In this document: positions 10,807-29,944 of the stretch, piece after piece | Numbering within the stretch: position 1 is the stretch's first letter | How the letters are laid out: every line of letters starts with the position of its first letter | DNA from: Halobellus rufus | GTDB lineage: Archaea; Halobacteriota; Halobacteria; Halobacteriales; Haloferacaceae | Length of the DNA: 64,000 nt | Direction of reading: 5' to 3' | Assembly: GCF_000739575.1 (NCBI RefSeq) | Contig: NZ_BBJO01000014.1 | Location: forward strand, 248,001 to 312,000 | Translations under genes and position numbers: made by a program | The notes under the pieces: generated by a model | Database searches by the model: none | Told to the model about the DNA's origin: nothing | What the model saw: only the letters and a program-made list of their open reading frames with translations

Positions 10807-11061
10807 TCAGCGGGATCCGTCGCGGTCCCGGCCGGTGTCGGGCATCGCGCCGTCGTATTTGATCCGCTCGAAGATCGTGTGACAGCTGTTGCAGTAGTAC
10901 TGGCTCTTCGAGACCTCCGACCCGAACGTCGATTCGAGTTCGACGTCCTCGGAGCCGCAGAACGGACAGGCCGCCCGGAACGGCGGTTCTTCCTCCCGCG
11001 AGCCGTCGGCGACCGCTTCGCGCGCCGTATCGGCCCCGGAGTTCGAGACGTTCGAGCTCAT
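10807..11061 (-). CDS. PaaD-type zinc-ribbon protein (detached C-terminal half of PaaD)
   Basis: An 84-residue protein from the ATG at 11061, which overlaps the paaC stop by ATGA; a start at 11157 would lie inside paaC. Residues around 31-70 read CPFCGSEDVELESTFGSEVS, then YYCNSCHTIFERIKYDG. This matches the two-CxxC zinc ribbon that forms the C-terminus of bacterial PaaD (C-P-x-C-G-S-x-x-V-x-x-x-S-x-F-G-S). Here it is a separate gene at the end of the operon, while the MIP18 half lies at 12034-12408. It probably works with that half in maturing or stabilising the epoxidase. Confidence 0.85.
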   Translation of the reverse strand: MSSNVSNSGADTAREAVADGSREEEPPFRAACPFCGSEDVELESTFGSEVSKSQYYCNSCHTIFERIKYDGAMPDTGRDRDGSR

Positions 11062-11837
11062 TCGATCACGTACTCCTTGTTCGAGACGCCCTGTAGCTGG
11101 TCGACCACGCTGGCTTCGACGTGGCCGTCGTCGGTTCGTCTGCGCTTCGCATCCCACTGGTCGGGGTCCGGGACGTCGCCGTCGAGGGGCGGCACCGACA
11201 CGTCCGTGCTCGCGAACAGCTCAACGTAATGCTCGTGAAGGGCACCGCGGATGTCCGCGACCGAGCGATCGGTGAAGCCGGCGTTCACGAGCGGGTCCGA
11301 CGCCTGGTCGTAGGTCGCGGGACCGATGAACGTGAGTATCTGCGGGAAGTACCGCTCCAACGCGGCTTCGACGGCGTCTGGTTGGCTCTCCGCGAGCGTC
11401 TCGAGTCGGCCGTCCTGGTGCTCCAGGTGGAAGTACTCGTCCTCGCCCATCTTCTGGACCATCCCGGTGAAGTCGTCGTGGTCGATGGCGTCCAGCAGTA
11501 GCCAGGCCGTCCGGTCGGTGAGCGCCGCCTGGACGACGAACGTCGGCCAGTTCTCGGCCTCCTCGTCGAGTGTCGGCGCGTTCGCGTACTCCTCGGGAGC
11601 GCGTTCGGACTCCAGCCACTCCTCGTCGACGCCCTGCTGTTTGAGGAGGCGGAACAGCTGTCGGACCTGTCCGATCTCGTCTTGGGCGTTGCTCGCCCCG
11701 GAGATGTTGTCCTCGAGGTGCGGTCCCTTCAGCATCCACTCGCCGTAGCGCTGCCCCAAGAGCAGCTTCGTGTCGGCGATCGCTTGTACGTAGTCGACGG
11801 CGGCTTCCGGCCAGCCGGTTTCGGCTTCGGCGTTCAT
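11058..11837 (-). CDS. paaC: 1,2-phenylacetyl-CoA epoxidase subunit PaaC
   Basis: A 259-residue ferritin-like helical protein of normal PaaC length. It contains ADTKLLLGQRYGEWMLKGPH and ASNAQDEIGQVRQLFRL, where the iron-binding histidine of PaaA is replaced by glutamine (Q57), as expected for this structural, non-catalytic subunit. EDEYFHLEH follows near residue 135. PaaC scaffolds PaaA in the multicomponent oxygenase that epoxidises the ring of phenylacetyl-CoA. It overlaps its neighbours on both sides by ATGA. Confidence 0.93.
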   Translation of the reverse strand: MNAEAETGWPEAAVDYVQAIADTKLLLGQRYGEWMLKGPHLEDNISGASNAQDEIGQVRQLFRLLKQQGVDEEWLESERAPEEYANAPTLDEEAENWPTFVVQAALTDRTAWLLLDAIDHDDFTGMVQKMGEDEYFHLEHQDGRLETLAESQPDAVEAALERYFPQILTFIGPATYDQASDPLVNAGFTDRSVADIRGALHEHYVELFASTDVSVPPLDGDVPDPDQWDAKRRRTDDGHVEASVVDQLQGVSNKEYVIE

Positions 11838-12037
11838 TGTGGGTACCCTCCTGCGATGGCTTCGGTCTTGACTTCGAGCAGATTCTCCTCGCGGACGACG
11901 CCGATGAACTCCCAGTCCTCCTCGTCGTAGGTCCGGTAGGCGTAGATGCGCGCCAGACGGTCGGAGTCGGCCTGTACCGTCCCGGCGTGGATCAGATCGT
12001 CACCGGCGTTGACTCGCGTGAACACGTGGTACTTCAT
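11834..12037 (-). CDS. paaB: 1,2-phenylacetyl-CoA epoxidase subunit PaaB
   Basis: A 67-residue protein from MKYHVFTRVNAGDDLIHAGT, with the ARIYAYRTYDEEDWEF core and a VVREENLLEV segment typical of PaaB. It is shorter than bacterial PaaB (about 95 residues). In the epoxidase PaaB links PaaAC units and is not catalytic. The ATG at 12037 overlaps the upstream paaD stop (ATGA), and the stop overlaps the paaC start, so it is translationally coupled on both sides. Confidence 0.9.
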   Translation of the reverse strand: MKYHVFTRVNAGDDLIHAGTVQADSDRLARIYAYRTYDEEDWEFIGVVREENLLEVKTEAIAGGYPQ

Positions 12038-12408
12038 AGGCTGATACCCGCGTCTTTGAGTTCTTCGTGAGCGGTCTCGGTGAGCATGTCCTTCGACCAG
12101 ACGGGGTCCCACGTGATCTCGATCTCGACGCCCGTGATCCCGCGGATCGTTCGCAGCGCGGCGCGGACGTCGTCTTTGATCATATCGTAGGCGGGACATC
12201 CCATACAGGGGAACGTCATAGTGACCGTGGCCTCACCCGCGTCGACATCGACGTCGTAGATCATCGCCATCTCGACGAGGCTGACCGGAATGTGGGGGTC
12301 GGGGACGGTATCGAGCGTCTCCCACACCTCTCGCTCCAGTTCGTCGGCGTCCTCGTCCGGACCGATGTGAAAGCCCGGCGTTCCGGCGTCGACGGAGTTG
12401 ACGCTCAT
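12034..12408 (-). CDS. paaD: PaaD N-terminal half, MIP18/DUF59-type assembly protein
   Basis: A 124-residue protein with the MIP18-family core: WETLDTVPDPHIPVSLVEM, then VTMTFPCMGCPAYDMIKDDV with the paired cysteines of this family, and VEIEITWDPVW. PaaD is needed to make an active PaaABCE oxygenase, and MIP18 proteins act in iron-sulphur or metal-centre assembly. Bacterial PaaD carries a zinc ribbon after this domain. Here the protein stops and the ribbon is a separate gene at the other end of the operon. It begins two bases after paaA. Confidence 0.9.
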   Translation of the reverse strand: MSVNSVDAGTPGFHIGPDEDADELEREVWETLDTVPDPHIPVSLVEMAMIYDVDVDAGEATVTMTFPCMGCPAYDMIKDDVRAALRTIRGITGVEIEITWDPVWSKDMLTETAHEELKDAGISL

Positions 12409-12409
12409 G

Positions 12410-13330
12410 TCACACCCCCACTTCGATCTTGCCCGACTGGAGCATATTGACGTACTTCTCGTTGGCCGGGCCGCGGTCCCGCCAGCGGTCGAGCACGTCG
12501 TCCCAGGAGATCGGCTCCTCGAAGCGCCACTCCTTGTTCTCCGCGTCGAAGGCGACCGGGGCGTCGTACTCGAGGACGTACTCCTCGGACTCCTCGTCGA
12601 AGTGGGCGGGGACGTCCAGCCCGAGGTCGTTCGCCAGCGGCACGGTGTGGCTCATCCACTCCTGCCGCAGCTCGTCGTTGGTCTTGCCCTTGATCCGATA
12701 GTCGAGTTGGGACGTGTTGTGCTTCTGGTCGTCGGGGAGGCCGAACCACTCGATGCCCATCGGGAACATCCAGTCCATCGCCTCTTGGACGCGGCGCTTC
12801 GTCTTCTCCGATTTGTTGGCCAACCGTCGCATCCACGTCTCACCGTGGCGCAGGTGGAACTGCTCTTCCTTTCCGACTTTGCGGAGGGCGCGCTTCCACG
12901 GCGCGTAGGAGGTGTTCTCCTCGATGTCGCTCAGGAGGACCATCCCCGCGCGGTCGAACATCCCGTGCGCGCTGACGAGTTCGGCGAAGGTCTCCAGGTG
13001 CTGGTCGAACCCGTAGGTGTTGCGGAACTCGTGGGGCTCGCGCCCGAAGAGGAGTTCCTCGCGGTCCTCGCCGAGGTCCTCGAGGAGCCGATAGGCGATG
13101 TGCCCGTGACCGAGTTCGTCCTGGATGACGCTCACACAGGAGGCGCGCGCGTCCAGCGTCGGCGCGTTCATCGATTGCTCGTAGTACGCGGGGGCGCTCA
13201 TCAGTTCCGTGTCCGCCGAAACCTTGAGCGTCGCCTTGAGAGCCTTCTTGTAGCCCTCGGTCATCTCGGACTCGTCCTCGATCATCCGACCGTTCTGTAG
13301 TTGCTCTTTGAATCGTTTTTCCGTTGGCAT
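12410..13330 (-). CDS. paaA: 1,2-phenylacetyl-CoA epoxidase catalytic subunit PaaA
   Basis: A 306-residue diiron subunit. Ligand motifs are visible: E42 in TELMSAP, E72-x-x-H75 in IQDELGHGH, and E156-x-x-H159 in KEEQFHLRH. The family's EWFGLPDD and LDYRIKGKTNDELRQEW stretches are present. It inserts oxygen into the aromatic ring of phenylacetyl-CoA to give the 1,2-epoxide. It is the first gene of the operon paaA-paaD-paaB-paaC-zinc ribbon, all on the reverse strand with contacts of two bases or less. No PaaE flavin reductase is in the operon; a 2Fe-2S ferredoxin lies 700 bases away. Confidence 0.95.
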   Translation of the reverse strand: MPTEKRFKEQLQNGRMIEDESEMTEGYKKALKATLKVSADTELMSAPAYYEQSMNAPTLDARASCVSVIQDELGHGHIAYRLLEDLGEDREELLFGREPHEFRNTYGFDQHLETFAELVSAHGMFDRAGMVLLSDIEENTSYAPWKRALRKVGKEEQFHLRHGETWMRRLANKSEKTKRRVQEAMDWMFPMGIEWFGLPDDQKHNTSQLDYRIKGKTNDELRQEWMSHTVPLANDLGLDVPAHFDEESEEYVLEYDAPVAFDAENKEWRFEEPISWDDVLDRWRDRGPANEKYVNMLQSGKIEVGV

Positions 13331-13365
13331 AGCTCGAAATTCGCCTCGTCAGCAAAGTTTGGCTC

Positions 13366-13385
13366 CAGTAGTATTAACTTTACTG
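13366..13385. promoter_or_regulatory. Inverted repeat over the presumed paaA promoter
   Basis: CAGTA and TACTG are exact inverted arms ten bases apart. The centre, read on the reverse strand, is AAGTTAATAC and includes an AT-rich TATA candidate 40-50 bases before the paaA start. A regulator bound here would block the operon. No regulator gene adjoins it. Confidence 0.4.
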
Positions 13386-13544
13386 CCGGTGGCTCGGACT
13401 GACTGACCGTTTCTCTCGGGACACGCGACGGCCACGCCGACCGATTCCCCGGGGTACAACGAGTGAAGCGCGCCGGTCGAGTCCCTATAACCCACAGGTA
13501 ATCTGACATTTATTCGAGGTCCGCCGCTCGTATCGACGCGAATC

Positions 13545-13550: not shown

Positions 13551-13574
13551 AAGGATGGGTTCAGAATGGGGGGT

Positions 13575-14057
13575 ATGGAAGTCCGGACACGACACGCCGC
13601 CGAATCGGACGGAGAGGAGATATTGGAACTGTGGCATAAGTTCACGGCTCACCTCTCGAAGTACGACGACAGATACAGTCACGACGACCAGGCCGACGAA
13701 CGGTGGCTCCGTTACTTCGAGAACCAGTTGGTGGACTCGAAGTACGGCACGGTGATCGTCGCCGAAAACGACGAGGGCGAACCGCTCGGCGTGCTGGAGG
13801 CACGCGTGATGGGGGATCACCCGATATTCCAGTTGTCGAACCACGGCTACGTGCACGGGTTGTACGTGCGCGAGGAACACCGGCAGGAGGGCGTCGCCGC
13901 GGCGCTCTTGGACGCCGCCGCCGACTGGTTCCGCGAGGACCCACGCGGCGTCGACTACTACCGAATCGACGTTCTGGCCGACGACGACACCGCGAGCCGG
14001 ATGCTCGAATCCCACGGGCTCGAACCGGTCGAATGCGTCTACGAACAGCGACTCTAA
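13575..14057 (+). CDS. GNAT-family N-acetyltransferase
   Basis: About 160 residues. The GNAT core is clear: motif A around GYVHGLYVREEHRQEGVAAA with the acetyl-CoA-binding R/Q-x-x-G-x-A/V pattern, then YRIDVLADDDTASRMLESHG, LEPVECVYEQRL. It moves an acetyl group to an unknown amine. An ATG three codons upstream (13566) is an alternative start; GGGGGT just before 13575 and a TATA-like box favour the later one. The ferredoxin gene follows after one base, so the two are probably one transcript. Confidence 0.88.
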   Translation: MEVRTRHAAESDGEEILELWHKFTAHLSKYDDRYSHDDQADERWLRYFENQLVDSKYGTVIVAENDEGEPLGVLEARVMGDHPIFQLSNHGYVHGLYVREEHRQEGVAAALLDAAADWFREDPRGVDYYRIDVLADDDTASRMLESHGLEPVECVYEQRL

Positions 14058-14058
14058 T

Positions 14059-14342
14059 ATGGTCGAATACTAGACGTCGAGTTCGTCGACGAGGGGCGAA
14101 CGATCTCGGTGCCCTCGGACAAGCCGATCCTGGAGGCGGCCGAAGAGGCGGGACTCGATCTGCCGTATCAGTGCCGGATGGGCGTCTGCGGGGTGTGCTC
14201 GGCGCTCCGCGTCGAAGAGGGCGAGACAGACCAAGTCGAGGGGATGTTCCTCTCGGGTTCCGAGAAAGAGGAGGGCTACGTTCTGACGTGCGTGGCCAAG
14301 CCGCGGTCGGATCTCAAGTTGCGCTCGAACGAGAGCCCCTGA
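14059..14342 (+). CDS. 2Fe-2S ferredoxin, frameshifted near the start
   Basis: The main frame carries LPYQCRMGVCGVCSAL and later YVLTCVAKP, the four cysteines (C-x4-C-x2-C...C) of plant/PaaE-type ferredoxins. The natural start MVEY at 14059 runs into TAG at 14071 after four codons. The fitting continuation, LDVEFVDEGRTISVPSDK, is in another frame. One extra C at 14070 (TAC-CTA-GAC) would join them as MVEYLDVEFVDEG. As it stands only a GTG at 14109 is available, which would lose the first beta strands. It is a candidate electron donor to PaaA, as its cysteine region resembles the PaaE ferredoxin domain. Confidence 0.8.
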
Positions 14343-14696: not shown

Positions 14697-14792
14697 CGCG
14701 GGCCCGATGACGTCCGCCAATCAACGAAGCACCGTCAGTAACTGGTGAGCCTTCGCGGCCGTCGGAGGTTCGAGGAGCGCGTCGAGTGTAAT

Positions 14793-14798
14793 GTTTAA
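14793..14798 (+). promoter_or_regulatory. TATA-like box of the 3-hydroxyacyl-CoA dehydrogenase operon
   Basis: TGTTTAAG ends 26 bases before the ATG at 14824, the spacing of a leaderless transcript. Confidence 0.5.
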
Positions 14799-14823
14799 GT
14801 CTTCGCCTACCATCGCCTGCGGT

Positions 14824-15708
14824 ATGCACGTAACAGTCCTCGGAGCGGGGACGATGGGACACGGCATTGCACAGGTGAGCGCGATGGGGGGACACGACGT
14901 GGTCCTTCGCGACATCGAATCGGACTTGGTCTCCGAGGGAATCGACGCGATCCGATCGAACTTGCGGGGCGGGGTCGAACGCGAGAAACTCACCGAGGCC
15001 GAGATGGAATCCGCTCTCGACAACATCACCGGTGAGACCGACCTCGAAGCCGCCGTCGCCGGAACTGACCTCATCGTCGAGGCCGTTCCCGAGGACCTCG
15101 ATCTGAAGAAGAGCGTCCTCGGCGACGCCGAGGACGCCGCGGCGGACGACACGGTGCTCGCGACGAACACGTCGTCGCTGTCTGTGACGGAACTCGCGAG
15201 CGCTCTCGAACGCCCGCAGGGGCTGATCGGACTGCACTTCTTCAATCCGGTGCACATCATGTCGCTTGTCGAGGTCATCGTCGGGGAACGAACCAGCGAC
15301 TCGACGCAGTCGGTTGCGACTGAGTACGTCGACAGCATCGACAAGACGTCGGTCGTCGTTCGGGACACTCCCGGATTCGCGTCGTCGAGACTTGGCGTCG
15401 CACTCGGCGTCGAGGCGATTCGGATGGTCGAAGAGGGCGTCGCTTCGCCGCGCGACATCGACAACGCGATGGAACTGGGATACAACCACCCGATGGGGCC
15501 GCTGGAGCTCACGGACGTCGTCGGACTGGACGTCCGCTTGGACATCCTCGAATACCTGCGCGAGGAACTCGGTGAACGGTTCAAACCGCCTCAACTGCTC
15601 AAACGCAAGGTCCGGGCCGGGAAAGTCGGGAAGAAGTCGGGCGAGGGATTCTACGTGTGGGAGGACGGCGAAGCGGTCGGAATGAGCGGCGAGTGGGGGG
15701 ACCGATGA
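14824..15708 (+). CDS. 3-hydroxyacyl-CoA dehydrogenase
   Basis: A 294-residue single-domain enzyme. The NAD-binding loop is GAGTMGHGIAQ at residues 7-17. The catalytic pair is in LHFFNPVHIMSLVEVI (His, and Glu twelve residues on), and the C-terminal helical domain has NHPMGPLELTDVVGLDV. It oxidises 3-hydroxyacyl-CoA to 3-oxoacyl-CoA, matching PaaH in a phenylacetate pathway. The ATG at 14824 has a TATA-like box at leaderless distance. The stop overlaps the next enoyl-CoA hydratase start (ATGA), forming a beta-oxidation pair. Confidence 0.93.
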   Translation: MHVTVLGAGTMGHGIAQVSAMGGHDVVLRDIESDLVSEGIDAIRSNLRGGVEREKLTEAEMESALDNITGETDLEAAVAGTDLIVEAVPEDLDLKKSVLGDAEDAAADDTVLATNTSSLSVTELASALERPQGLIGLHFFNPVHIMSLVEVIVGERTSDSTQSVATEYVDSIDKTSVVVRDTPGFASSRLGVALGVEAIRMVEEGVASPRDIDNAMELGYNHPMGPLELTDVVGLDVRLDILEYLREELGERFKPPQLLKRKVRAGKVGKKSGEGFYVWEDGEAVGMSGEWGDR

Positions 15709-16505
15709 GCGACGACGTCCTCGACCGAACGTTCGAGTCGCTTCGCGTCGACCGAAACGACGGCGTCGCCACGATCACGATCGACCGTCCCGACGATCGG
15801 AACGCGCTGAACGCGACGGTGAGAGACGAGCTCCGAACCGTCCTGCCGGCGATCGAAGACGCGGAGGAACGCGTCGCGGTCATCACGGGCTCCGAGGAGT
15901 GCAACGCCTTCGTCGCGGGCGCGGACGTCACCGAACTCCGCGAACGCGACCTCCTCGAACAGCGCGAGGCGAGCGCGCGACCGCGGATCTACGAACTCGT
16001 CGACGAACTGCGCACCCCGGTCGTCGCCCGGATCAACGGGCACGCCTTAGGCGGCGGCCTCGAACTCGCGATGGCCTGTGACGTTCGCGTCGCCGAGCAG
16101 GGTGGGAAACTCGGTCAGCCCGAGATCAACCTCGGGATCATCCCGGGCGGCGGCGGGACCCAGCGGTTGCCCCGCCTCGTCGGAGAGGGGCAGGCGATGC
16201 GGTTGATCCTCTCGGGCGAACTGATCGACGCCGACGAGGCGCACGAGATGGGGCTCGTCGATCTGGTGTGTTCCTCCGAGGAGTTCGACGAGCGCGTCGA
16301 GTCGTTGACGTCGGGGATCGCAGACAAGAGTCCGCTCGCGCTCGAGTTCGCCAAAGAGAGCATCCGTTCGGCCTCTCGGCTCCCGCTGGACGACGGGATC
16401 GATTACGAGGCGCAACTGTTCGTCCAACTGTTCGCGACCGAGGACAAAAACGAGGGCATCGACGCCTTCTTCGAGGACAGAGCGCCGGAGTGGGAGGGGA
16501 AGTGA
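15705..16505 (+). CDS. Enoyl-CoA hydratase
   Basis: A 266-residue crotonase, coupled by ATGA to the dehydrogenase before it. AGADVTEL forms the oxyanion hole. HALGGGLELAMACD and GQPEINLGIIPGGGGTQRLP carry both catalytic glutamates in the classical context of a short-chain enoyl-CoA hydratase. The longer frame upstream of 15705 lies inside the dehydrogenase gene. With its neighbour it makes 3-oxoacyl-CoA from 2-enoyl-CoA, the PaaF-like step. Confidence 0.93.
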   Translation: MSDDVLDRTFESLRVDRNDGVATITIDRPDDRNALNATVRDELRTVLPAIEDAEERVAVITGSEECNAFVAGADVTELRERDLLEQREASARPRIYELVDELRTPVVARINGHALGGGLELAMACDVRVAEQGGKLGQPEINLGIIPGGGGTQRLPRLVGEGQAMRLILSGELIDADEAHEMGLVDLVCSSEEFDERVESLTSGIADKSPLALEFAKESIRSASRLPLDDGIDYEAQLFVQLFATEDKNEGIDAFFEDRAPEWEGK

Positions 16506-16580: not shown

Positions 16581-17417
16581 ATGAAGGCATTCGACGAACT
16601 CGATCTAGAGTACTTCCAGACCGAGGTACGCAATCACGTTGGAGTCCTCCGCATCGACCGACCGCCGGTGAACGCGCACAACATCGACGTTCTGCTGGAG
16701 CTCCAGCGGGCCGTCGAGGGCGTTCGCTTCGACGACAACGTCCGCGTCTGCGTCTTCGGCAGCGCGAACGAGGACATCTTCTCGACCGGCTTCGACATCA
16801 ACGCGCTGCAGGAGGAGAGCGGCGAGCAGGTCGGCTACGCGAGCCAGACCTCCAAGGAGATCATTATGAAGATGCGGACGACGGACACGCTGTTCATCGC
16901 GGAGGTCGACGGCCACTGTATGGGCGGCGGTCTCGAACTCGCGCTCGCGTGTGACTTCCGGTTCGTCGGCGACGACGACGACTACCGCATCGGGATGCCG
17001 GAGATCCACCTCGGACTCATCGCCGGCGAGGCCGGCACGCAGCTGCTCCCCCGCTACATCGACCGCTCGGACGCGCTCCGGATGATGGTCACCGGCGAGG
17101 AGCTGACCCCCGCAGAAGCCACCGAGAAGGGCATCTTCGACGAACTCCACGACCCCGAGGACCTCGAAGACGCGGTCTTCGAGTTCGCCGAGATGATCGT
17201 CGAGAAGCCGGCCGGTGCGGTCGGTCACAACAAGCTCGCCGTCAACGAGGGCCTCGAACTGCCGCTCTGGGACGCGCTGGCTCACGAGCGCGAACTGCAG
17301 AACCAACTGCTCGGCTCCGACATCGCGAAGGAGGGCGTCGACGCGTTCCTCGACAAGCGCGACCCCGACTTCCTCGGCGTCGAACTCGGCGACAAGGAAC
17401 CCGGATCCGACGAATAA
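16581..17417 (+). CDS. Enoyl-CoA hydratase/isomerase family protein
   Basis: A 278-residue crotonase paralogue that is more acidic and more divergent than its neighbours. STGFDINAL replaces the usual AGAD loop, so the oxyanion alanine position differs. HCMGGGLELALACDFRF and GMPEIHLGLIAGEAGTQLLP keep the two glutamates. It stands 75 bases after the previous hydratase, with an AT-rich promoter-like stretch (ATAACTATTAGTATTGG) between, so it may be expressed separately. Hydratase or hydrolase activity on a CoA ester is likely; the substrate is unknown. Confidence 0.85.
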   Translation: MKAFDELDLEYFQTEVRNHVGVLRIDRPPVNAHNIDVLLELQRAVEGVRFDDNVRVCVFGSANEDIFSTGFDINALQEESGEQVGYASQTSKEIIMKMRTTDTLFIAEVDGHCMGGGLELALACDFRFVGDDDDYRIGMPEIHLGLIAGEAGTQLLPRYIDRSDALRMMVTGEELTPAEATEKGIFDELHDPEDLEDAVFEFAEMIVEKPAGAVGHNKLAVNEGLELPLWDALAHERELQNQLLGSDIAKEGVDAFLDKRDPDFLGVELGDKEPGSDE

Positions 17418-19107: not shown

Positions 19108-19875
19108 CTACCGGAACTCCGGCCGCTCGTCGTTGAGGAACGCGTCCACTCCGGTCTCGTGCGGATCGCTCCCGTAGGCGAGGACTTGGAGGTAGGCCTC
19201 GCGCTCGAGGGCGTCTCGGAACGGGCGGCCGATGTTCTCGTGGATGCCGCGCTTGGTGAGCCCGAGAGTCTCGGTCGGCTTCCGCGAGAGCCGTTCGAGG
19301 AGGTCCTCGACGGTCTCGTCGAGATCTGCGCCGTCCACCGCGCGGTTGATCAGGTCCATCTCCGCGGCCTCCGCGGCGTCGAAGATGCGCCCGGTCATCG
19401 TCAGCTCCTTCGCGGTGCGGAGGCCGACGAGCGCGGGCAAGAGGAACGTCCCACCGGAGTCCGGAATCAGCCCCACGTTCCCGAACAACTCGCCGAATCG
19501 GGCTTCCTCGTCCGCGTACGCGAAGTCGCACGCGGCGACGACGTTCGTGCCCGCGCCGACGGCGTCGCCGTTGACCTTGGCGATCACCGGGATCGGAACG
19601 GTGAGAAGCGTCTCGACCAACGGGCTCAGCGTCGACTGCACGCGCTCGAACGCCTCGTGCGGCGTCTCGTCTCTGGCCGCCATCGCCTCGATGTCGCCGC
19701 CCGCGCAGAATGCGTCGCCATCGCCGGTCAGGACGACGGCCCTGACGTCCGACTCGCCGGCCGCTTCGAGCGCGCCGATCAACTCGGTCGCGGCGTCGGC
19801 GGTGAACGCGTTCTTCGCCTCCGGGCGATCGAACGACAGTGTCCGGACGCGGCCGTCCGTCTCGACTCGTACCAT
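19108..19875 (-). CDS. paaG: PaaG-type 1,2-epoxyphenylacetyl-CoA isomerase
   Basis: A 255-residue crotonase lacking the hydratase glutamates: GDAVGAGTNVVAACDFAYA replaces GGGLELA, and FGELFGNVGLIPDSGGTFLL replaces the second site. The sequence G-L-I-P-D-x-G-G-T-x-L-L with aspartate D139 is the hallmark of PaaG, which opens the ring epoxide to the seven-membered oxepin-CoA and also shifts double bonds. Its presence close to paaABCD supports an aerobic phenylacetyl-CoA route. It is 52 bases downstream of the ALDH start on the same strand and may be co-transcribed with it. Confidence 0.88.
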   Translation of the reverse strand: MVRVETDGRVRTLSFDRPEAKNAFTADAATELIGALEAAGESDVRAVVLTGDGDAFCAGGDIEAMAARDETPHEAFERVQSTLSPLVETLLTVPIPVIAKVNGDAVGAGTNVVAACDFAYADEEARFGELFGNVGLIPDSGGTFLLPALVGLRTAKELTMTGRIFDAAEAAEMDLINRAVDGADLDETVEDLLERLSRKPTETLGLTKRGIHENIGRPFRDALEREAYLQVLAYGSDPHETGVDAFLNDERPEFR

Positions 19876-19929: not shown

Positions 19930-19952
19930 TTCTCAGTCGTCGAGCGGTCTGT

Positions 19953-22772: not shown

Positions 22773-24413
22773 TCAGTCCTTGTACTGCTGGCGCTCGCGC
22801 TCCCGGAGCTTCACGCGCTGGATCTTCCCGGTCTCCGTCCGGGGGAGCTCGTCGACGAACTCGACCCGTCGCGGGTACTTGTACGGGGCCAGCGTGTTCT
22901 TGACGTGGTTCTGCAGCGTGTCGACCAGGTCGTCGTCACCCTCGACGCCCTCGGGGACGACCACGAACGCCTTCACCACTTGACCGCGTTCCTCGTCGGG
23001 AGAGCCCACGACCGCGACCTCCGAGACCTCCTCGCGCTCTTCGAGGACCGCCTCGACCTCGGGACCGGGGATGTTGTACCCGCTGGAGATGATGAGGTCG
23101 TCCTCTCGGGCCTTGTACTCGAGCCGTCCGTCCTCGCGGTGGACGTAGATGTCGCCGGGGAGGCTCCAGCCGTCGATGAGAGCCTCCTCCTGCTTCTCGG
23201 GGCGGTTCCAGTAGGAGATGCCGGTGGGCCCGCGGACGGCCAGCAGTCCGGCCTCGCCGCGGGGCAGTTCCTCGCCGGTGTCGGGGTCGACGACCTTGCA
23301 CTCGTATCCGGGGACGGGGTATCCCGTCGCACCGGGGTCGATCTCCTGTCCCTCGCGGTGGCTCACGAAGATGTGCAGCATCTCCGTCGTCCCGATCCCG
23401 TCGTAGATCTCGACGCCGTAGTCGTCTTTGAATCGGTTGAAGGTGCTGTGTGTGAGGGGTTCGCCGGCGCTCACCGCGAGACGGAGCGAACTCGTGTCGA
23501 ACTCCTCGGGCCCGTCGGGGAACTTCGAGAGAATCTGGTTGTACGCCGTCGGGATCGAGCAGAGGATCGAGATTCCGTGGTTCTCGACGGCTTCGAGCAG
23601 GTCTCCGGGCGAGGCGTTCTCGACGAGGCTCGACGTCGCGCCGAACCGAAGCGGGAAGGTCAGGAGGTCGCCGTACCCGTAGGCAAACGGCAGCGGCGGG
23701 TTGCCCCCGAAGACGTCGTCCTCGGTGACGTTGAGGCAGTACCGCGCGTAACTGTCCGCCGTCGAGAGGACCTGGCGGTGGGTGTGCGTCGCGCCCTTCG
23801 GCTGACCCGTCGTCCCGGACGTGTACAGCATCAGCGCGAGGTCGTCGCGTTCGGTCGGGTAGGGCTCCAACTCCTCGTCGGCGCTCTCGGTAAGTTCGTC
23901 GTAATCGGTGTGGTCGTGCTCGACGCCGTTTCGCTGCACGGCGACGACGGTCTCGACGGTGTCGAGGTCCGGGAGCGCCTTGTTGATCTCCTCGAGGAGG
24001 TCGTCGTAGACGATGACGGCCGACGCCTCCGCGTTGTTGATGATGTGGACGAGCTCCTTCGCGCGGAGGAGCTTCATCGACGGAAGCGCGACTGCGCCGA
24101 TCTTCTGGACCGCCAGACAGGAGACGATCGCCTCCGGGCGGTTGGTGAAGCGGACGACGACCCGGTCACCGGGCTCGACGCCCTTCTCGGCGAGTCCGTT
24201 TCCGAGGCGGTTGACCCGACGCTGGAGATCGCTGTAGGTGATCTCGTCGTCCCCGAACCGGATCGCGACGTTGTCGCCACGCCCCGCTTCGACGTGTCGG
24301 TCGACCAGTTCGGCTGCGACGTTCAGTTCCTCTTTGTAGTGAAGCTCCGGCAGCGGATGGACGAGATCCGGCCCCTCGTCGGGAAGATACGCCTGTGGTA
24401 CGTTCTCTTGCAT
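22773..24413 (-). CDS. Acyl/aryl-CoA ligase, benzoate- or 2-aminobenzoate-CoA ligase-like
   Basis: A 546-residue AMP-forming ligase. The P-loop is LMLYTSGTTGQPKGATHTHR, the adenylate motif YDGIGTTEMLHIF, the hinge region REDDLIISSGYNIPGPEVEA and the C-terminal catalytic lysine in LPRTETGKIQR. The acyl pocket context (PLPFAYGYGDLLTFPLRFGA) resembles benzoate and anthranilate CoA ligases. It would activate an aromatic acid to its CoA thioester, the entry step for the CoA enzymes around it. It is transcribed divergently from the Liv-type importer, with 240 bases between. Confidence 0.88.
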   Translation of the reverse strand: MQENVPQAYLPDEGPDLVHPLPELHYKEELNVAAELVDRHVEAGRGDNVAIRFGDDEITYSDLQRRVNRLGNGLAEKGVEPGDRVVVRFTNRPEAIVSCLAVQKIGAVALPSMKLLRAKELVHIINNAEASAVIVYDDLLEEINKALPDLDTVETVVAVQRNGVEHDHTDYDELTESADEELEPYPTERDDLALMLYTSGTTGQPKGATHTHRQVLSTADSYARYCLNVTEDDVFGGNPPLPFAYGYGDLLTFPLRFGATSSLVENASPGDLLEAVENHGISILCSIPTAYNQILSKFPDGPEEFDTSSLRLAVSAGEPLTHSTFNRFKDDYGVEIYDGIGTTEMLHIFVSHREGQEIDPGATGYPVPGYECKVVDPDTGEELPRGEAGLLAVRGPTGISYWNRPEKQEEALIDGWSLPGDIYVHREDGRLEYKAREDDLIISSGYNIPGPEVEAVLEEREEVSEVAVVGSPDEERGQVVKAFVVVPEGVEGDDDLVDTLQNHVKNTLAPYKYPRRVEFVDELPRTETGKIQRVKLRERERQQYKD

Positions 24414-24653: not shown

Positions 24654-25940
24654 ATGACGCAGAAGGCTCTCGATCGGCGCAAACTCCTGAAGGCGACTGG
24701 CGCGGCAGCAACCGTCGGCCTCCTCGCAGGATGTTCCAGCGGCGGCAACGGGGACGGCGGCGACTCCGGAGGGGACTCCGGCGGCGACGGCGGCGACAGT
24801 GGGAACGAGGATACCGAAACATCCGGCGGCGGCGACAGCGAGGGAGACATCAACATCGGTTCGGTCCAACCGCTCTCCGGCGGATTCGCACCGTGGGGAC
24901 AGGCCCACTCGGCCGGGCTGGCGTTCGCGATCGACGAGATCAACGCCGACGGCGGGGTCTTGGACGGGCAGAACCTGAACATCGTGGAGGCGAACTCCGA
25001 GAGCGACCCGGCGGAGGCGTCGTCGATCTTCGAGCGGTTCGCCGAACAGAACGACATCGTGGCCGCCACCGGCCCGGTGAGCTCCGACGTCGGTATCCGC
25101 ACCTCCCGGACGGCACAGGAACTCGGGATTCCGATGGTGATGCACATGGCCGGCTCCGACGAGACGATCACCGAGGAGACGCTGCACTCGTTCAGACTGG
25201 GACTGCTGCCCGCGGCGACGACGATGCAGGCGCAGGCGCAGTTCGTCGCCGACGCGGGCTACCAGAACGTCGCCGCCATCGTCGGCGACTACGCGTGGGG
25301 GCAGTCCGTTCGGACGGCCATTCAGGACAACTTCGACGTGAACGTGGACATCCAGGTCGCTCCCGTCGGCGCGAGCGACTTCTCCTCGTACATCCGTCAG
25401 ATCTCACAGGACGTGGAGATGGTCATCGCCACCGGCCACCCGCCGGGTTCGCTGACCATCGCTCAGCAGCTGTACGAACTCGGATACGAACCGGACGTCA
25501 TCTCGGGTCCCGGCCTCCCACCCGCCGTCATCAGCTCTGCGCTGGGTGAGAACGTGGACCGCGGGTTCACGCACATCCATATGAGCGACGTGTACACCGA
25601 AGAGTACGCCGAGGTGGCGCAGCGATTCGGAGAGGAGGTCGGCGAACAGTTCGACACGCACACCTCCTACGGGTACGTCACGGGCAAGATGATCGCGCAG
25701 GCGATCGAGAACGCCGGCGAGGCCGACCCCGAGGCGATCACCGAGGCCATCCGGAGCATCGAGTTCGACACGCTGTTCCCCGAACCGATTCAGTACTCCG
25801 AGTACGGCGAACTGAAGAACCAGGTCCAGTTGTACAGTTCGCTCACCACGGAAGCGCCCTCGTACTACTCTGAGGGAAGCTACAGCCTCCAAGAGGAGTT
25901 CCGCACGGAGCCCCTCCCGGCGCTCCCGCCCGAGGAGTAA
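24654..25940 (+). CDS. ABC transporter substrate-binding lipoprotein (Leu/Ile/Val-binding family)
   Basis: A 428-residue periplasmic-binding-type protein. The N-terminus has a Tat motif (DRRKLLKATG) and a lipobox (LLAGC), then a Gly/Asp/Ser linker of about 40 residues typical of haloarchaeal lipoproteins. The binding domain begins INIGSVQPLSGGFAPWGQAH and belongs to the LivK/type I fold. This branch also binds aromatic acids and amides in bacteria. With the permease and ATPase genes that follow and the aromatic CoA genes around it, uptake of an aromatic carboxylate is a fair guess. Confidence 0.9.
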   Translation: MTQKALDRRKLLKATGAAATVGLLAGCSSGGNGDGGDSGGDSGGDGGDSGNEDTETSGGGDSEGDINIGSVQPLSGGFAPWGQAHSAGLAFAIDEINADGGVLDGQNLNIVEANSESDPAEASSIFERFAEQNDIVAATGPVSSDVGIRTSRTAQELGIPMVMHMAGSDETITEETLHSFRLGLLPAATTMQAQAQFVADAGYQNVAAIVGDYAWGQSVRTAIQDNFDVNVDIQVAPVGASDFSSYIRQISQDVEMVIATGHPPGSLTIAQQLYELGYEPDVISGPGLPPAVISSALGENVDRGFTHIHMSDVYTEEYAEVAQRFGEEVGEQFDTHTSYGYVTGKMIAQAIENAGEADPEAITEAIRSIEFDTLFPEPIQYSEYGELKNQVQLYSSLTTEAPSYYSEGSYSLQEEFRTEPLPALPPEE

Positions 25941-26067
25941 TCCGGCTCCCCGTTTCCGGATTCACCCCCGGTTTCAATCGTTCGACCACCTACGACAAGA
26001 TGCACTTGACTGACTCGCTCGTGAAGTCGAAAAGTATACACCAGTATCCCTAATGAGTAGAGACTAG

Positions 26068-26931
26068 ATGGTAACAATTAGCACATTGGCGGCGCTCGCC
26101 GTTGACGGACTCGCCTTCGGCGCGTCCTTAGCGCTGCTCGGCGTTGGAATCACGCTCGTTTACGGTCTCGGGGAGGTGTTGAACCTCGCAATCGGCGCGT
26201 TCGCAGTCATCGCGGCCATTCTGGCCTCGTTGTTGATCGACCAAGGGATGTCGTTGCCGGTTGCGATCGCAGGAGGGCTCGCGTTCGTCGGCGTCTTCGG
26301 TCTCGTCGTCGACCGGACGCTCCTCTCGCTGGTGTACCGCTCTGACGGCGAAGAGCGGATCCTGATCGGGATCTTCACCACGCTCGGGCTGACCGTCCTC
26401 CTGGAGGGAGTGATGGTGAACTACGTCTCCTCGCAGTACTCGCTCCCGCTCGGCCTCGATCCGATTCGCGTCGGGGCCGCGGTGGTGACCGGGACGTCGG
26501 TCGCGAGCATCGTCATCGCCGCGGTGGTGCTCGCCGTCCTGTTCCTCTTCTTGAACCGGACGTTCCTCGGGAAGGCGACTCGAACCATCTTCCAAGACGA
26601 GCGCGGCGCGCGTCTCGTCGGGATCAACCCCCGGAAGATTCGGACGCTGGTGTTCGTCCTCTCCGTGCTCGTCGCGGGGCTGGCCGGCGTCCTCGCGGCC
26701 GCTCGCTCGAACGTCAGCGTCGCGACGAGCTTCGAGTTCACGACCTTCGCGCTCATCGTCTCGATCGTCGGCGGGGTTCGCAGCCTCGTGGGGGCCGTCG
26801 TCGCCGGACTCCTCTTGGGTCTCATCAACACGATGGCGAACTTCTTCGTCGGTTCGTACTTCGCGACGATCATCCTCTTCGGTGCCGCGATCGTCTTCCT
26901 GCTCTTCCGTCCGGAGGTGATGTCGTCGTGA
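26068..26931 (+). CDS. livH: Branched-chain-type ABC transporter permease (LivH family)
   Basis: A 287-residue membrane protein with about eight helices. VYGLGEVLNLAIGAFAVIAA is the LivH signature near the N-terminus, and KATRTIFQDERGARLVGIN is the cytoplasmic coupling loop to the ATPase. IVGGVRSLVGAVVAGLLLG follows. It pairs with the next permease, whose start it overlaps by ATGA-type coupling (GTGA at 26928). AAAGTATACACC about 33 bases before the start could be its own TATA element. Confidence 0.92.
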   Translation: MVTISTLAALAVDGLAFGASLALLGVGITLVYGLGEVLNLAIGAFAVIAAILASLLIDQGMSLPVAIAGGLAFVGVFGLVVDRTLLSLVYRSDGEERILIGIFTTLGLTVLLEGVMVNYVSSQYSLPLGLDPIRVGAAVVTGTSVASIVIAAVVLAVLFLFLNRTFLGKATRTIFQDERGARLVGINPRKIRTLVFVLSVLVAGLAGVLAAARSNVSVATSFEFTTFALIVSIVGGVRSLVGAVVAGLLLGLINTMANFFVGSYFATIILFGAAIVFLLFRPEVMSS

Positions 26932-27950
26932 GCGACTTCCTCCCGGGCGGGCGCAAACTCGCGCTCGTGGGACTGCTGTTCGTGCTCGCCCCGCTGCCGG
27001 TGATGGGCAGCGGCTACTTCGTCGGCGTCCTCTCGCGGACGCTGCTCTTCGCGCTCTTCGCGATCGCGCTGAACATCGTCTTCGGGCACAACGATCAGCT
27101 GTTCCTCTTCATGGGCGGTCTCGGCGGTATCGGCGCGTACACCACCGCGCTCATCGCCGACAGCGTCGGTGTCTCCGCGTGGCTGGCGCTCCCAGTCGCG
27201 GCGGTTATCGCCGGGCTCATCGGCCTGTCGGTCAGCTGGATCTCCGCGCGCCGGAGCTTCACCGTCATCCTGATCTCGATCCTGACGCTGAACCTCCAGC
27301 TCGTGTTCTCGGAGGCCTTCATCGGGGCCCGCGGTCTGACCGGCGGCTCGACCGGCTTCCCGTACGAGCTGTTCACGCTGAGCGGGATCGCCGAGGCCGC
27401 GGGCGTCCCGACCGCAGTGGTCATCTACTACGTCATCCTGGCGTTCTTCCTGGCCGCGATGGTGCTGTACATCTGGCTCATCAACTCCAAGTACGGAATC
27501 GCGTTCGAGGCGATCCGCGAGGACGAGATGGCCGCCGAGTCGATCGGGATCGACGTGGTCCGATACAAGTCCATCGCGGGCTTCATCGCCGGCGTCATCA
27601 TCGCCATCGCGGGGACGTTGCTGGCGCGGGAAGCCACGTACATCACCCCCTCGATCTTCACGTTCCTCGCGGTCGACGTGATCGCGCTGGTCGTCCTCAT
27701 CGTGGGCGGGATCCGCCAGACCTACGGCCCGATCGTGGGCGCGGTCATCGTCGAGGCGATCGAGGCGATCCTCGGGACCTACGCCGCCAACTGGCGGACC
27801 GCCATCTTCGGTGCGCTCCTCATTCTCCTGTTCCTGTACTTCCGCAGCGGCGTCATCGTCAAAGCTCAGGAGTTCTTGGAGGACCGGGACGTCTCTCTCG
27901 GCGGTGGCAACGGCGGTACCGCAGCCGTCGACACCGGGGGCGACGGCTAG
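26928..27950 (+). CDS. livM: Branched-chain-type ABC transporter permease (LivM family)
   Basis: A 340-residue permease starting at a GTG that overlaps livH. LLFALFAIALNIVFGHNDQL is the LivM N-terminal signature, KYGIAFEAIREDEMAAESIG the coupling loop, and LIVGGIRQTYGPIVGAVI the conserved late helix. A short Gly-rich acidic tail (GGGNGGTAAVDTGGDG) ends the protein. It forms the channel with LivH. Confidence 0.92.
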   Translation: MSDFLPGGRKLALVGLLFVLAPLPVMGSGYFVGVLSRTLLFALFAIALNIVFGHNDQLFLFMGGLGGIGAYTTALIADSVGVSAWLALPVAAVIAGLIGLSVSWISARRSFTVILISILTLNLQLVFSEAFIGARGLTGGSTGFPYELFTLSGIAEAAGVPTAVVIYYVILAFFLAAMVLYIWLINSKYGIAFEAIREDEMAAESIGIDVVRYKSIAGFIAGVIIAIAGTLLAREATYITPSIFTFLAVDVIALVVLIVGGIRQTYGPIVGAVIVEAIEAILGTYAANWRTAIFGALLILLFLYFRSGVIVKAQEFLEDRDVSLGGGNGGTAAVDTGGDG

Positions 27951-28049
27951 CCGCGCGGCCGGTTCTCATTCCCGGACTGCGAGCGCTTTTCTTGATGTTT
28001 GACGAGGCAAAACCGTTATTAGGTGGCGGGGGTCTGTATATAGGTACCA

Positions 28050-28781
28050 ATGCTTGAGGCCGCGAACATCCGGAAGAAGTTCGGTGGTCTCGTCGCGGTC
28101 GACGGGGTCGACCTGGAGATCGGAAACGGCGAGATCGTCGGGCTCATCGGACCCAACGGTGCCGGAAAGACGACGCTCTTCAACACCATCACGGGGGTGC
28201 TCGAACCGGAGCAAGAGACGGAGATCACGTTCAACGGCGAGGACATCGTCGCGCTCGGGACGCACGAGATCGCCCGTGCGGGGCTGCTTCGAACGTTCCA
28301 GATCGTTCGGGTGTTCGGCGAGATGTCCGTCTTCGAGAACGCCGTCGCCGGCGCGCTCTTCGGAACCGAGGAGTCGATTTCACAGGAGGAGGCCGAAGAC
28401 AGAGCCCGGGAGGCGCTCGCGTTCGTCGGCCTCGAGGACAAGGCGGATATGCAGGCGGAGAACCTCCCGATTGCACAACAGAAACAGCTCGAACTGGCTC
28501 GGGCCGTGGCCTCCGAACCGGACCTCGTCTTGCTCGACGAGATCGCGAGCGGTCTCACGCCGGGCGAGATCGAAGAGCTGTCCGATACGATCCGTCGTCT
28601 TCGGGACGAACTGGGGATCTCGGTATTTTGGATCGAACACATCATGGACGCGATTATGGGAACCGCAGACCGCATCATCGTACTCAAGAGCGGCGAGAAG
28701 ATCGCCGAGGGAACGCCCGAAGAGATCAGGAACGATCAGGTCGTGACTGAAGCCTACCTCGGAGCGGAGGACGAATCGTGA
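28050..28781 (+). CDS. livG: Branched-chain-type ABC transporter ATPase (LivG family)
   Basis: A 243-residue ATPase. Walker A is GPNGAGKTTLFN and Walker B LDLVLLDEIASGLTP-like (PDLVLLDEIASGL). RTFQIVRVFGEMSVFENAVAG is the LivG Q-loop region. The usual LSGGQ signature is weakened to LPIAQQKQLELARA, which is seen in some LivG proteins. It lies 99 bases after livM, with an AT-containing TATATAGG just before the start, so a second promoter is possible. It overlaps livF by four bases. Confidence 0.92.
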   Translation: MLEAANIRKKFGGLVAVDGVDLEIGNGEIVGLIGPNGAGKTTLFNTITGVLEPEQETEITFNGEDIVALGTHEIARAGLLRTFQIVRVFGEMSVFENAVAGALFGTEESISQEEAEDRAREALAFVGLEDKADMQAENLPIAQQKQLELARAVASEPDLVLLDEIASGLTPGEIEELSDTIRRLRDELGISVFWIEHIMDAIMGTADRIIVLKSGEKIAEGTPEEIRNDQVVTEAYLGAEDES

Positions 28782-29470
28782 TCGCGCTCGACTCCGTCGA
28801 CGTCTCCTACGGGAACATCCAGGTCATCTGGGACTTCGACTTCGAGGTCTCCGAGGACGCGGGCGTCGTCTCGCTGGTCGGTCCCAACGGCGCGGGGAAG
28901 TCGACGCTGCTGCGGGTGATGTCCGGGCTTCACCCCGTCGACTCCGGGACCGTGACCGCGTGGGGCGAGGACGTCTCGACGCTGGACTCCTCGGAGATCG
29001 TGAAGAAGGGCTTCGTCCACGTCTCAGAGGAGCGGAACCTGTTCGGAGAGATGACCGTACGGGAGAACCTAGAGATGGGGGCGTACACCGAGCGTGACAA
29101 TCTCGAAGAGACGATGCAGGAGGTCTACGAGGTCTTCCCGATTCTCGAGGAGCGCTCGGACCAGTTGGCGCGGTCGATGAGCGGCGGCCAACAGCAGATG
29201 CTCGCGATCGGCCGTGGACTGATGGCCCGCCCGAAGATCCTCGCGCTCGACGAGCCGTCGGAGGGGCTGGCACCGCAGATCACCGACCGCGTCTTCGAGA
29301 AGATCGAAGACATCAGCGAGGACATCACCGTCCTCCTGGTCGAACAGCACGTGAACCGCGCCCTGAAGATGGCCGACCGCGCATACCTGATCGAGAACGG
29401 CAGGATCGTCAAAGAGGACACCGGAACGCGGCTCTTAGAGAGCGACCACGTCAAGGACGCGTACCTCTGA
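28778..29470 (+). CDS. livF: Branched-chain-type ABC transporter ATPase (LivF family)
   Basis: A 230-residue ATPase with Walker A GPNGAGKSTLLR, signature MSGGQQQMLAIGRGL, Walker B KILALDEPSEGLAP, and the H-loop VEQHVN. The start GTG overlaps livG (GTGA). It completes a full K-H-M-G-F importer on one strand. A MaoC-type enzyme follows after three bases. Confidence 0.93.
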   Translation: MIALDSVDVSYGNIQVIWDFDFEVSEDAGVVSLVGPNGAGKSTLLRVMSGLHPVDSGTVTAWGEDVSTLDSSEIVKKGFVHVSEERNLFGEMTVRENLEMGAYTERDNLEETMQEVYEVFPILEERSDQLARSMSGGQQQMLAIGRGLMARPKILALDEPSEGLAPQITDRVFEKIEDISEDITVLLVEQHVNRALKMADRAYLIENGRIVKEDTGTRLLESDHVKDAYL

Positions 29471-29473
29471 GCG

Positions 29474-29944
29474 ATGGTTCGCTACTTCGAGGACATCACA
29501 CCGGAGGAGACGCACGACCTCGGCTCTTACACCGCCGACCGGGACGAACTGATCGAGTTCGCCCAACGGTACGATCCCCAGCTAATCCACGTCGATCCGG
29601 AGGTTGCGCGGGAGACGATGTACGGCGGTCTCATCGCCAGCGGCTGGCACACGGCCGGTTCGTGTATGGCGCTCTTGGTGGAGGGATTCCTGTCGGAGAC
29701 GGCGACGCTCGGCTCCTTCGGACTCGAGGAACTCCGCTGGCGCACGCCGGTCCGGCCGGGCGACACCGTACGGGCGGAACTCGCGGTCGTGGAGACGACG
29801 GCCTCGGAGAGCCGCGACGACCGCGGATACGTCACGCTCGACGTCCGAGCCGAAAACGAGCAGGGAGAGGAGGTCGTCTACTGGCGGTCGACGAACATCT
29901 TTCTCACGCGGGACGGCGGCGACGAGTGGCCGACCGCCGAGTGA
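29474..29944 (+). CDS. MaoC-family enoyl-CoA hydratase
   Basis: A 156-residue single-hotdog MaoC protein. The hydratase motif is here FAQRYDPQLIHVDPEVARET, with the D-x-x-x-x-H arrangement of R-specific enoyl-CoA hydratases. YGGLIASGWHTAG and LRWRTPVRPGDTVRAEL follow. In bacteria the ring-opening half of PaaZ is a MaoC domain that hydrolyses oxepin-CoA. With no fused PaaZ in the window, this stand-alone protein next to the aromatic importer may do that step. Ordinary enoyl-CoA hydration is the alternative. Confidence 0.85.
   Translation: MVRYFEDITPEETHDLGSYTADRDELIEFAQRYDPQLIHVDPEVARETMYGGLIASGWHTAGSCMALLVEGFLSETATLGSFGLEELRWRTPVRPGDTVRAELAVVETTASESRDDRGYVTLDVRAENEQGEEVVYWRSTNIFLTRDGGDEWPTAE

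Follow-up and report, generated by a model that had tools for sequence, protein, structure and literature searches.

A haloarchaeal gene island that probably opens benzoate-type rings after CoA attachment and probably does not encode phenylacetate breakdown with a split PaaZ

The genome of Halobellus rufus (assembly GCF_000739575.1, a haloarchaeal draft of 3.85 Mb in 81 contigs) contains an island of aromatic-degradation genes on contig NZ_BBJO01000014.1. We analyzed it within a 64,000-nucleotide stretch, positions 248,001 to 312,000 of that contig, here called the window; all coordinates count from its first letter. The original prediction, made from the sequence alone, described a near-complete phenylacetyl-CoA pathway in which two separate genes, an aldehyde dehydrogenase (ALDH, 17607-19055, minus strand) and a MaoC protein (29474-29944, plus strand), together replace the fused bacterial enzyme PaaZ. 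Our analysis indicates that the island probably opens benzoate-type rings after their attachment to CoA and probably does not serve phenylacetate by way of a split PaaZ. The best explanation, which we hold with somewhat better than even confidence, is that an aryl carboxylate, most probably benzoate via benzoyl-CoA, is broken down aerobically as its CoA ester, with a crotonase named ECH2 and the ALDH taking the parts of BoxC and BoxD and the MaoC protein having no share in ring opening. What was computed for this are the gene content, the position of the epoxidase outside the PaaA clade, its di-iron ligands, and the linkage of ligase, ECH2 and ALDH.

The epoxidase is encoded by a minus-strand operon in the order paaA, MIP18-like half of PaaD, paaB, paaC and zinc ribbon (A-D-B-C-Zn). 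Its PaaA-like catalytic di-iron subunit (12410-13330) matches PF05138 with 207.9 bits and keeps all six di-iron ligands, E42, E72, H75, D126, E155 and H158, that are listed for PaaA in the available part of PMC4498308. The PaaC-like structural subunit (11058-11837) matches the same family with 95 bits. Measured against the NCBIfam equivalog models, both remain below the cut-offs, with 138 versus 280 bits for PaaA and 58.6 versus 133 bits for PaaC (TIGR02158). In the phylogenetic tree, a clade with 100/100 support unites bacterial PaaA with that of three annotated haloarchaeal paa clusters (Haloferax, Haloarcula, Halorubrum); the window PaaA lies outside of it and joins Thermus and a Chloroflexi metagenome-assembled genome (MAG) with moderate support (86/88), while the fork that adds AArc-T1-2 and Agrobacterium is supported with 86/87. 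Judged by sequence comparison, the island epoxidase thus represents a second family, here called type B, apart from the clade that holds PaaA of bacteria and of canonical haloarchaeal clusters (type A). The two types share 31% identity in PaaA. The A-D-B-C gene order recurs in Thermus and AArc-T1-2, and type-A clusters are arranged as A-B-C-D-E. Among named relatives, Halobellus inordinatus has the nearest PaaA (93%); next come Haloferax (90%) and other Halobellus species (86-89%). Bacterial type-B relatives occur in the Chloroflexi MAG and on Thermus plasmids; an Agrobacterium plasmid carries a further PaaA relative with an AMP-binding gene close by. Most annotated records label type-B PaaA merely as 'phenylacetic acid catabolic protein'.

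The remaining operon members were recovered in a modified form. Both PaaB and PaaD, as proposed originally, are present, PaaD being distributed over two genes and PaaB being a small reading frame of 67 residues (11834-12037, minus strand), recognized by its sequence and by relatives in the same place that are annotated 'PaaB family protein'; a longer frame (11834-12199) matched nothing in Pfam or NCBIfam. The N-terminal, MIP18/SufT-like half of PaaD (12034-12408, minus strand) scores 114.5 bits with NF041868 (cut-off 180) and covers positions 1-89 of TIGR02159. The C-terminal half is a zinc ribbon with its own gene (10807-11061, minus strand), covering positions 102-144 of the same model and scoring 58.7 bits with Zn_ribbon_PaaD in the longer frame that was scanned. 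It lies near paaA in 31 of 32 haloarchaeal loci (L041-L072, that is, the 33 loci found with the window PaaA minus the Chloroflexi one). The NCBI model NF041869 labels this haloarchaeal zinc ribbon of about 55 residues 'PaaE'; it is the counterpart of the PaaD C-terminus and does not resemble a reductase. A search of the whole genome returned just two genes of the PaaA/PaaC family, those of this island. We also rejected a canonical paa operon in another part of the genome, with neither a type-A epoxidase nor PaaK found at the thresholds used.

To place the island in context, we surveyed 391 genomes across the class, of which 111 match the window PaaA at E<=1e-30. Type B was defined as a PaaA with at least 61% identity to the window protein, which applies to 43 of the 111 genomes (range 61-100%). 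These were compared with 37 genomes drawn from the 68 other matching ones, giving a set of 80; the 31 left out include four at 40-42% PaaA identity. The ligase, PaaK, ECH2 and both kinds of MaoC were scored within these 80 epoxidase-bearing genomes, and genomes with neither epoxidase type are outside the set. A search for type A showed that 14 of the 43 type-B genomes carry it too, leaving 29 with type B only, and that it is present in all 37 others (A-only).

The ligase of the island (LIG, 22773-24413, minus strand) belongs to the benzoate-CoA-ligase family, scoring 396.9 bits with TIGR02262 (cut-off 375.25). Its best solved relative is the benzoate-CoA ligase 2v7b, and benzoate-CoA ligases reach 301 and 270 bits. 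At a minimum of 69% identity, LIG was found in 42/43 type-B and 0/37 A-only genomes, two of the latter having a relative at 61%. PaaK shows the opposite distribution: with TIGR02155 at E<=1e-100, it is present in 33/37 A-only and 9/14 both-type genomes (42/51 with type A in total) versus 1/29 B-only genomes, and it was not found in the window genome at that threshold, which was our choice, as 0/80 genomes exceed the curated cut-off of 646.3 bits. Since both epoxidases coexist in 14 genomes and each is tied to its own ligase, different substrates are favoured, and the data speak for distinct substrates of type A and type B. On a Thermus plasmid with a type-B epoxidase, a gene of the benzoate-CoA-ligase family with 590.9 bits is likewise located nearby. 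With an epoxidase below the PaaA and PaaC cut-offs and outside the PaaA clade, a ligase of the benzoate type and no PaaK found, the proposed phenylacetyl-CoA pathway is not supported. The several aryl-CoA ligases described for the span reduce to this one; a second ligase or PaaK was not among the scanned genes.

By their crotonases, the type-B genomes fall into two subgroups: seven have another crotonase (hbECH) and lack both ECH2 and ALDH, and all 36 others form the main subgroup. ECH2 (16581-17417, plus strand) is a Pfam-recognized crotonase of 278 residues with both catalytic Glu residues, and a candidate for the ring-opening hydrolase or hydratase. It was found in 35/43 type-B and 0/37 A-only genomes, all 35 within the main subgroup (35/36); the genome search missed it in the last one (G359), yet a 55% match is visible in the type-B locus of that genome (L069). 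The ALDH, scored as present at E<=1e-200, occurs in 33/36 genomes of the main and 0/7 of the alternative subgroup, and 9/37 A-only genomes also pass this threshold. In a genome of the same genus (G030), the ALDH beside the type-B cluster is a frame of 199 residues (L077 7616-8215) that falls below the threshold and looks broken. The hbECH crotonase is absent from the 37 A-only genomes, and a relative of 53-54% identity occurs in 3/36 main-subgroup genomes as well. The ALDH tracks ECH2 and not the window MaoC.

The original prediction was right that the ALDH stands as a separate gene (Pfam 599 bits), and the fused PaaZ elsewhere in the genome that it named as a refutation was not found: 13 of the 16 PaaZ matches are to the ALDH part, three to the MaoC part, and none spans both halves. 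Its suggestion that ALDH and MaoC jointly replace PaaZ is not supported by the co-occurrence survey, in which the pair is not linked among genomes with a type-B epoxidase. Counted at 60% identity or more, the window MaoC is present in 7/33 ALDH-positive versus 6/10 ALDH-negative type-B genomes, or 8/36 of the main versus 5/7 of the alternative subgroup. A recount at a minimum of 50% gives 20/36, 6/7 and, for A-only genomes, 11/37. Nor is it the best match of its genome to the MaoC part of PaaZ (40 vs 64 bits; C40:29507-29932). The MaoC of canonical haloarchaeal clusters is a different protein. Scored at E<=1e-38, it is present in 51/51 type-A versus 0/29 B-only genomes, the window genome being among the latter. 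In the canonical cluster of Haloarcula sinaiiensis (L139 16980-19037), an ALDH gene and a MaoC/PaaZ-C gene are adjacent; the window ALDH shares 67% identity with the product of the former, and the window MaoC 29% with that of the latter. We therefore rejected the MaoC protein as the hydratase half of PaaZ on two grounds, the missing co-occurrence with the ALDH and the difference from the canonical-cluster MaoC. By the tests made here, it would belong to the transporter and thioesterase block in which it lies and would not be the ring opener.

A real split PaaZ may instead be represented by the Haloarcula sinaiiensis pair, and this canonical haloarchaeal combination of ALDH and MaoC could go unnoticed where a survey demands a fused PaaZ. 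The neighbourhood is not universal in type A: a close ALDH and a canonical MaoC within the fetched stretch were each seen in 9/23 type-A loci, several of which had been picked because an ALDH lay close. In the ALDH tree, in which 9/20 inner branches are open, the window ALDH falls into a 100/100 clade with ALDHs of type-A and type-B clusters. Its membership in a PaaZ-ALDH clade was discarded, as the tree places PaaZ elsewhere. The Thermus ALDHs were likewise dismissed as orthologues (38-41% identity, separate clade), and the one of AArc-T1-2 is also outside the window clade. Given this separate clade, the role rather than the gene could be shared with Thermus. There, two crotonases and an ALDH come after the epoxidase genes, with a MaoC farther along, and one of the crotonases is 42% identical to ECH2 with both Glu residues kept. 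In AArc-T1-2, an ALDH and two crotonases adjoin the epoxidase.

Gene context is the source for the substrate, the sequence of reactions, the part of ECH2 in ring opening and that of the ferredoxin in electron donation, and on this reading the pathway would run as follows. LIG would make the aryl-CoA thioester, presumably benzoyl-CoA. The type-B PaaADBC di-iron complex would epoxidise the ring, with the two PaaD halves serving its maturation and a neighbouring 2Fe-2S ferredoxin supplying it in place of PaaE. A crotonase, most likely ECH2, would open the epoxide or oxepin to a CoA-bound semialdehyde, as BoxC does, and the lone ALDH would oxidise it in the role of BoxD, equally that of the ALDH half of PaaZ. 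The PaaG-like isomerase, a hydratase, a 3-hydroxyacyl-CoA dehydrogenase and an SCP2-type thiolase would complete the route by beta-oxidation. In the available text of PMC4498308, BoxD is an ALDH-only homologue of PaaZ and BoxC a ring opener of crotonase fold. A crotonase and a lone ALDH are the pair expected in a Box-type scheme, and hence nothing need be 'split'.

As originally noted, there is no PaaE flavin reductase among the scanned island genes, a genome-wide PaaE search not having been made; annotated type-A haloarchaeal clusters show none either. The ferredoxin (14061-14342, plus strand) is of plant type, with 84.6 bits for TIGR02008 (cut-off 81.15, scanned from 14061), and matches PaaE at its ferredoxin end only (TIGR02160 265-345). 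Its gene accompanies the epoxidase in 32/32 haloarchaeal loci, and no ferredoxin match showed in the Chloroflexi type-B locus. The ferredoxin reported beside the operon is thus there, with the qualification that its frame lacks an ATG and first offers a start at GTG 14109. The ATG at 14059 (14059-14342), the start site in relatives, runs in another frame and hits a stop after four codons. Either the draft sequence contains an error, or translation starts at GTG 14109, or the gene is damaged. A GNAT acetyltransferase (13566-14057, plus strand; Pfam) with no obvious role adjoins the ferredoxin in 32/32 haloarchaeal type-B loci.

The alternative subgroup suggests a second outlet. A short-chain dehydrogenase (SDR) gene lies beside the crotonase in 5/5 fetched locus sets and in one MAG locus. 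Genes for a FAD-monooxygenase, a gentisate-dioxygenase-like protein and FAH are present in 3/5 of these sets, two of them from sister Haloferax; the MAG locus has the FAD-monooxygenase alone of these three, and none of them was found at 40% identity or above in the 16 other type-B locus sets. Genome-wide, the gentisate-dioxygenase-like gene occurs in 7/7 alternative-subgroup, 15/36 other type-B and 1/37 A-only genomes, and in the window genome it lies on another contig than the island. Tentatively, and with a little less than even confidence, we propose that in haloarchaea, Thermus and Chloroflexi type B is the aerobic benzoyl-CoA epoxidase, feeding two exchangeable modules: ECH2 with ALDH in a Box-like manner, or the other crotonase with the SDR, leading to 3-hydroxybenzoyl-CoA and gentisate.

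Several observations weigh against the benzoyl-CoA explanation or its extension. Our Fisher tests of co-occurrence ignore shared ancestry. LIG is also near an anthranilate-CoA ligase (4wv3, 267 bits vs 301/270 for the benzoate enzymes), and the ligase of AArc-T1-2 is of another kind, the benzoate-CoA-ligase model not being among its best 25 of 102 families. The likeness to Box is one of proposed roles. ECH2 itself is a single-domain protein that resembles an ordinary two-Glu enoyl-CoA hydratase by sequence. On NF046063, the model of an alternative oxepin-CoA hydrolase (cut-off 300), the PaaG-like protein scores 169 bits versus 104 for ECH2, so that the PaaG-like protein may be the ring opener instead; it has the hydratase Glu pair replaced and GLIPD kept. 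The AArc-T1-2 crotonases are nearer to this protein (37-39%) than to ECH2 (26-28%) and lack the Glu pair. As neither this cluster nor the NF046063 scores single out ECH2, our confidence in the best explanation and in its extension is lowered. Regarding the gentisate branch, the cupin remains below the gentisate cut-off (206.5 vs 442.1) and scores equally, again below cut-off, with the 5-aminosalicylate dioxygenase model (207.5), and the link is limited to part of the type-B family.

A related reading keeps the aryl-CoA pathway and replaces benzoate by another ring acid, for example a phthalate, a hydroxy- or aminobenzoate, or the product of a UbiD pair. This pair, which has no place in a plain benzoate pathway, is conserved in 20/21 type-B locus sets, as is its 197-residue partner, and an MBL-fold protein occurs in 21/21. 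The closeness of LIG to anthranilate-CoA ligase, the cupin's equal match to the 5-aminosalicylate model and the constant GNAT neighbour without known role point the same way. For the first UbiD protein, the best matches are ferulic acid decarboxylases and PA0254 (174-178 bits), with phthaloyl-CoA decarboxylase far behind (just 38 bits); solved-structure relatives point to no specific substrate, and our literature search returned nothing relevant on UbiD in haloarchaea. With no specific alternative substrate indicated, we consider this reading unlikely, if worth keeping in mind.

Less probable still, and in our view quite doubtful, is a phenylacetyl-CoA pathway with a diverged epoxidase, in which LIG would join phenylacetate to CoA and oxepin-CoA would be opened by a crotonase, either ECH2 or the PaaG-like protein. 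The ALDH, PaaG-like protein, 3-hydroxyacyl-CoA dehydrogenase, hydratase ECH1 and thiolase share 57-72% identity with their counterparts in the canonical phenylacetate cluster, a closeness of the lower pathway that keeps the phenylacetate route in consideration. A PaaG-like enzyme with GLIPD is present, and the accessible part of PMC9007349 proposes a crotonase-type oxepin-CoA hydrolase in Paraburkholderia. This is opposed by the coexistence of both epoxidases in 14 of 43 type-B genomes, by the benzoate-CoA-ligase type of LIG together with the tracking of type A by PaaK, and by the alternative type-B subgroup, which does without the ALDH. Finally, the joint replacement of PaaZ by the ALDH and MaoC genes is very improbable: they share one island, the MaoC has retained Asp and His in its hotdog hydratase motif and is weakly PaaZ-like (TIGR02278, 41.5 bits), and the ALDH resembles its canonical paa-cluster counterpart, but the two do not co-occur, another MaoC of the same genome matches PaaZ better, and PaaK, the type-A epoxidase and the canonical MaoC are lacking at the thresholds used.

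Profile scans placed PaaA, PaaC, ALDH, the GLIPDSGGT crotonase, hydratases, 3-hydroxyacyl-CoA dehydrogenase, thiolase and MaoC all where the original prediction had them. Downstream of the ferredoxin on the plus strand follow the PaaH-like 3-hydroxyacyl-CoA dehydrogenase (14791-15708; Pfam; 70% identical to its counterpart in the canonical haloarchaeal paa cluster) and ECH1, a PaaF-like, hydratase-type crotonase (15705-16505; 65% to the canonical-cluster hydratase, both catalytic Glu). The PaaG-like isomerase (19108-19875, minus strand) has the motif GLIPDSGGT, 198 bits with TIGR02280 (cut-off 345) and 57% identity to its canonical-cluster relative. The SCP2-type thiolase (19950-21128, plus strand; Pfam; NF004720 437.7 bits, cut-off 420) neighbours a protein with a C-terminal zinc ribbon/OB fold (21125-22552, plus strand; zf-ChsH2 match), a relative of which is annotated '3-hydroxy-3-methylglutaryl CoA synthase'. 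A five-gene ABC transporter of branched-chain-amino-acid type (24654-29470, plus strand; Pfam), the MaoC protein (Pfam 65 bits) and a double hotdog thioesterase (29950-30792, minus strand; 4HBT_2 and 4HBT matches) lie farther along.

In the other direction, the island reaches upstream to about 3.6 kb and takes in the UbiD pair and an acyl-CoA dehydrogenase. It begins with the crotonase ECH0 (3597-4376, minus strand; ECH_1 164.8 bits). On the plus strand, the 197-residue protein HYP197 (4421-5014), without a Pfam or NCBIfam match at E<=0.001 and counted in locus sets by homologues of at least 40%, precedes a UbiD-family (de)carboxylase (5011-6579; UbiD 224 bits) and a second, divergent UbiD-family protein (6576-8045; UbiD_C, UbiD and UbiD_N 37, 30 and 29 bits). 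The start of the acyl-CoA dehydrogenase frame (8702-10312, plus strand; Pfam Acyl-CoA_dh) is probably over-extended, as judged from an NCBIfam match that covers residues 159-533 only. Elsewhere, in Haloterrigena turkmenica (L095 30242-35094), the type-B epoxidase has a formate dehydrogenase about 10 kb away, and similar genes are near three more of the 21 locus sets; Box-type ring opening releases formate.

If the benzoyl-CoA explanation is true, the type-B family, present in 43 of the 391 haloarchaeal genomes sampled, would be the enzyme that attacks the ring of benzoate-type acids in haloarchaea and in some bacteria, and archaeal benzoate degradation would gain the first ring enzyme that it has been missing. 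Type-B clusters would then be misread if taken for broken phenylacetate pathways, and haloarchaeal benzoate attack would become directly testable with one gene cluster. This explanation would also correct the ad hoc idea of a split PaaZ, as a benzoyl-CoA scheme normally has a crotonase and a lone ALDH. Haloferax sp. D1227 is said to use a gentisate step in aromatic acid degradation. According to the accessible part of PMC6486533, this strain grows on benzoic, cinnamic and phenylpropanoic acids, and a 2026 survey, as far as its available text goes, finds archaeal phenylacetate configurations to be predominantly incomplete (PMC13186573). Our literature searches returned nothing for oxepin-CoA with MaoC or for a Haloferax gentisate dioxygenase, and no paper on a PaaABC-family benzoyl-CoA epoxidase, subscription literature being mostly beyond their reach. 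The separation of ALDH and ring opener is itself not new, having been published for bacteria (accessible parts of PMC9007349, PMC9493321 and PMC4498308); the type-B epoxidase family is uncharacterised.

Compared with the PaaABCDE and PaaZ system of E. coli and of haloarchaeal type-A clusters, the island shares the di-iron family and its ligands, the PaaB, PaaC and PaaD partners, the PaaG-like isomerase and the beta-oxidation enzymes; with the type-A clusters, it additionally shares a close ALDH relative and the separate zinc ribbon. It differs in its divergent PaaA, its A-D-B-C-Zn order and a benzoate-type ligase in place of PaaK, and it has neither a PaaE reductase in the island nor a canonical MaoC or fused PaaZ that could be found. 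With the Box pathway (BoxAB, BoxC, BoxD), as described in the available part of PMC4498308, it would share the logic of ligase, epoxidase, crotonase ring opener and stand-alone ALDH, and LIG, scoring above the family cut-off, is the likely counterpart of the Box benzoate-CoA ligase. The same text reports that PaaA and BoxB do not exchange substrates. In contrast to the monomeric BoxB with BoxA, the island epoxidase is PaaABC-like with a separate structural subunit, and ECH2 has one crotonase domain where BoxC has two.

Ring opening and aldehyde oxidation are carried by separate proteins in further bacterial systems, like in the island: PacL, a separate ALDH, works with a separate oxepin-CoA hydrolase (PMC9007349, in the part available), and the hotdog hydratase of Aromatoleum is likewise a ring opener apart from the ALDH (PMC9493321 and PMC4498308, likewise in part). 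These separate-ALDH systems serve phenylacetate, whereas the island differs in ligase and epoxidase, and the partner tracking its ALDH is a two-Glu crotonase. The haloarchaeal gentisate route, finally, is approached by the alternative type-B subgroup, which lies near FAD-monooxygenase, gentisate-dioxygenase-like and FAH genes in 3/6 loci; the window island, in contrast, belongs to the subgroup with ALDH and ECH2.

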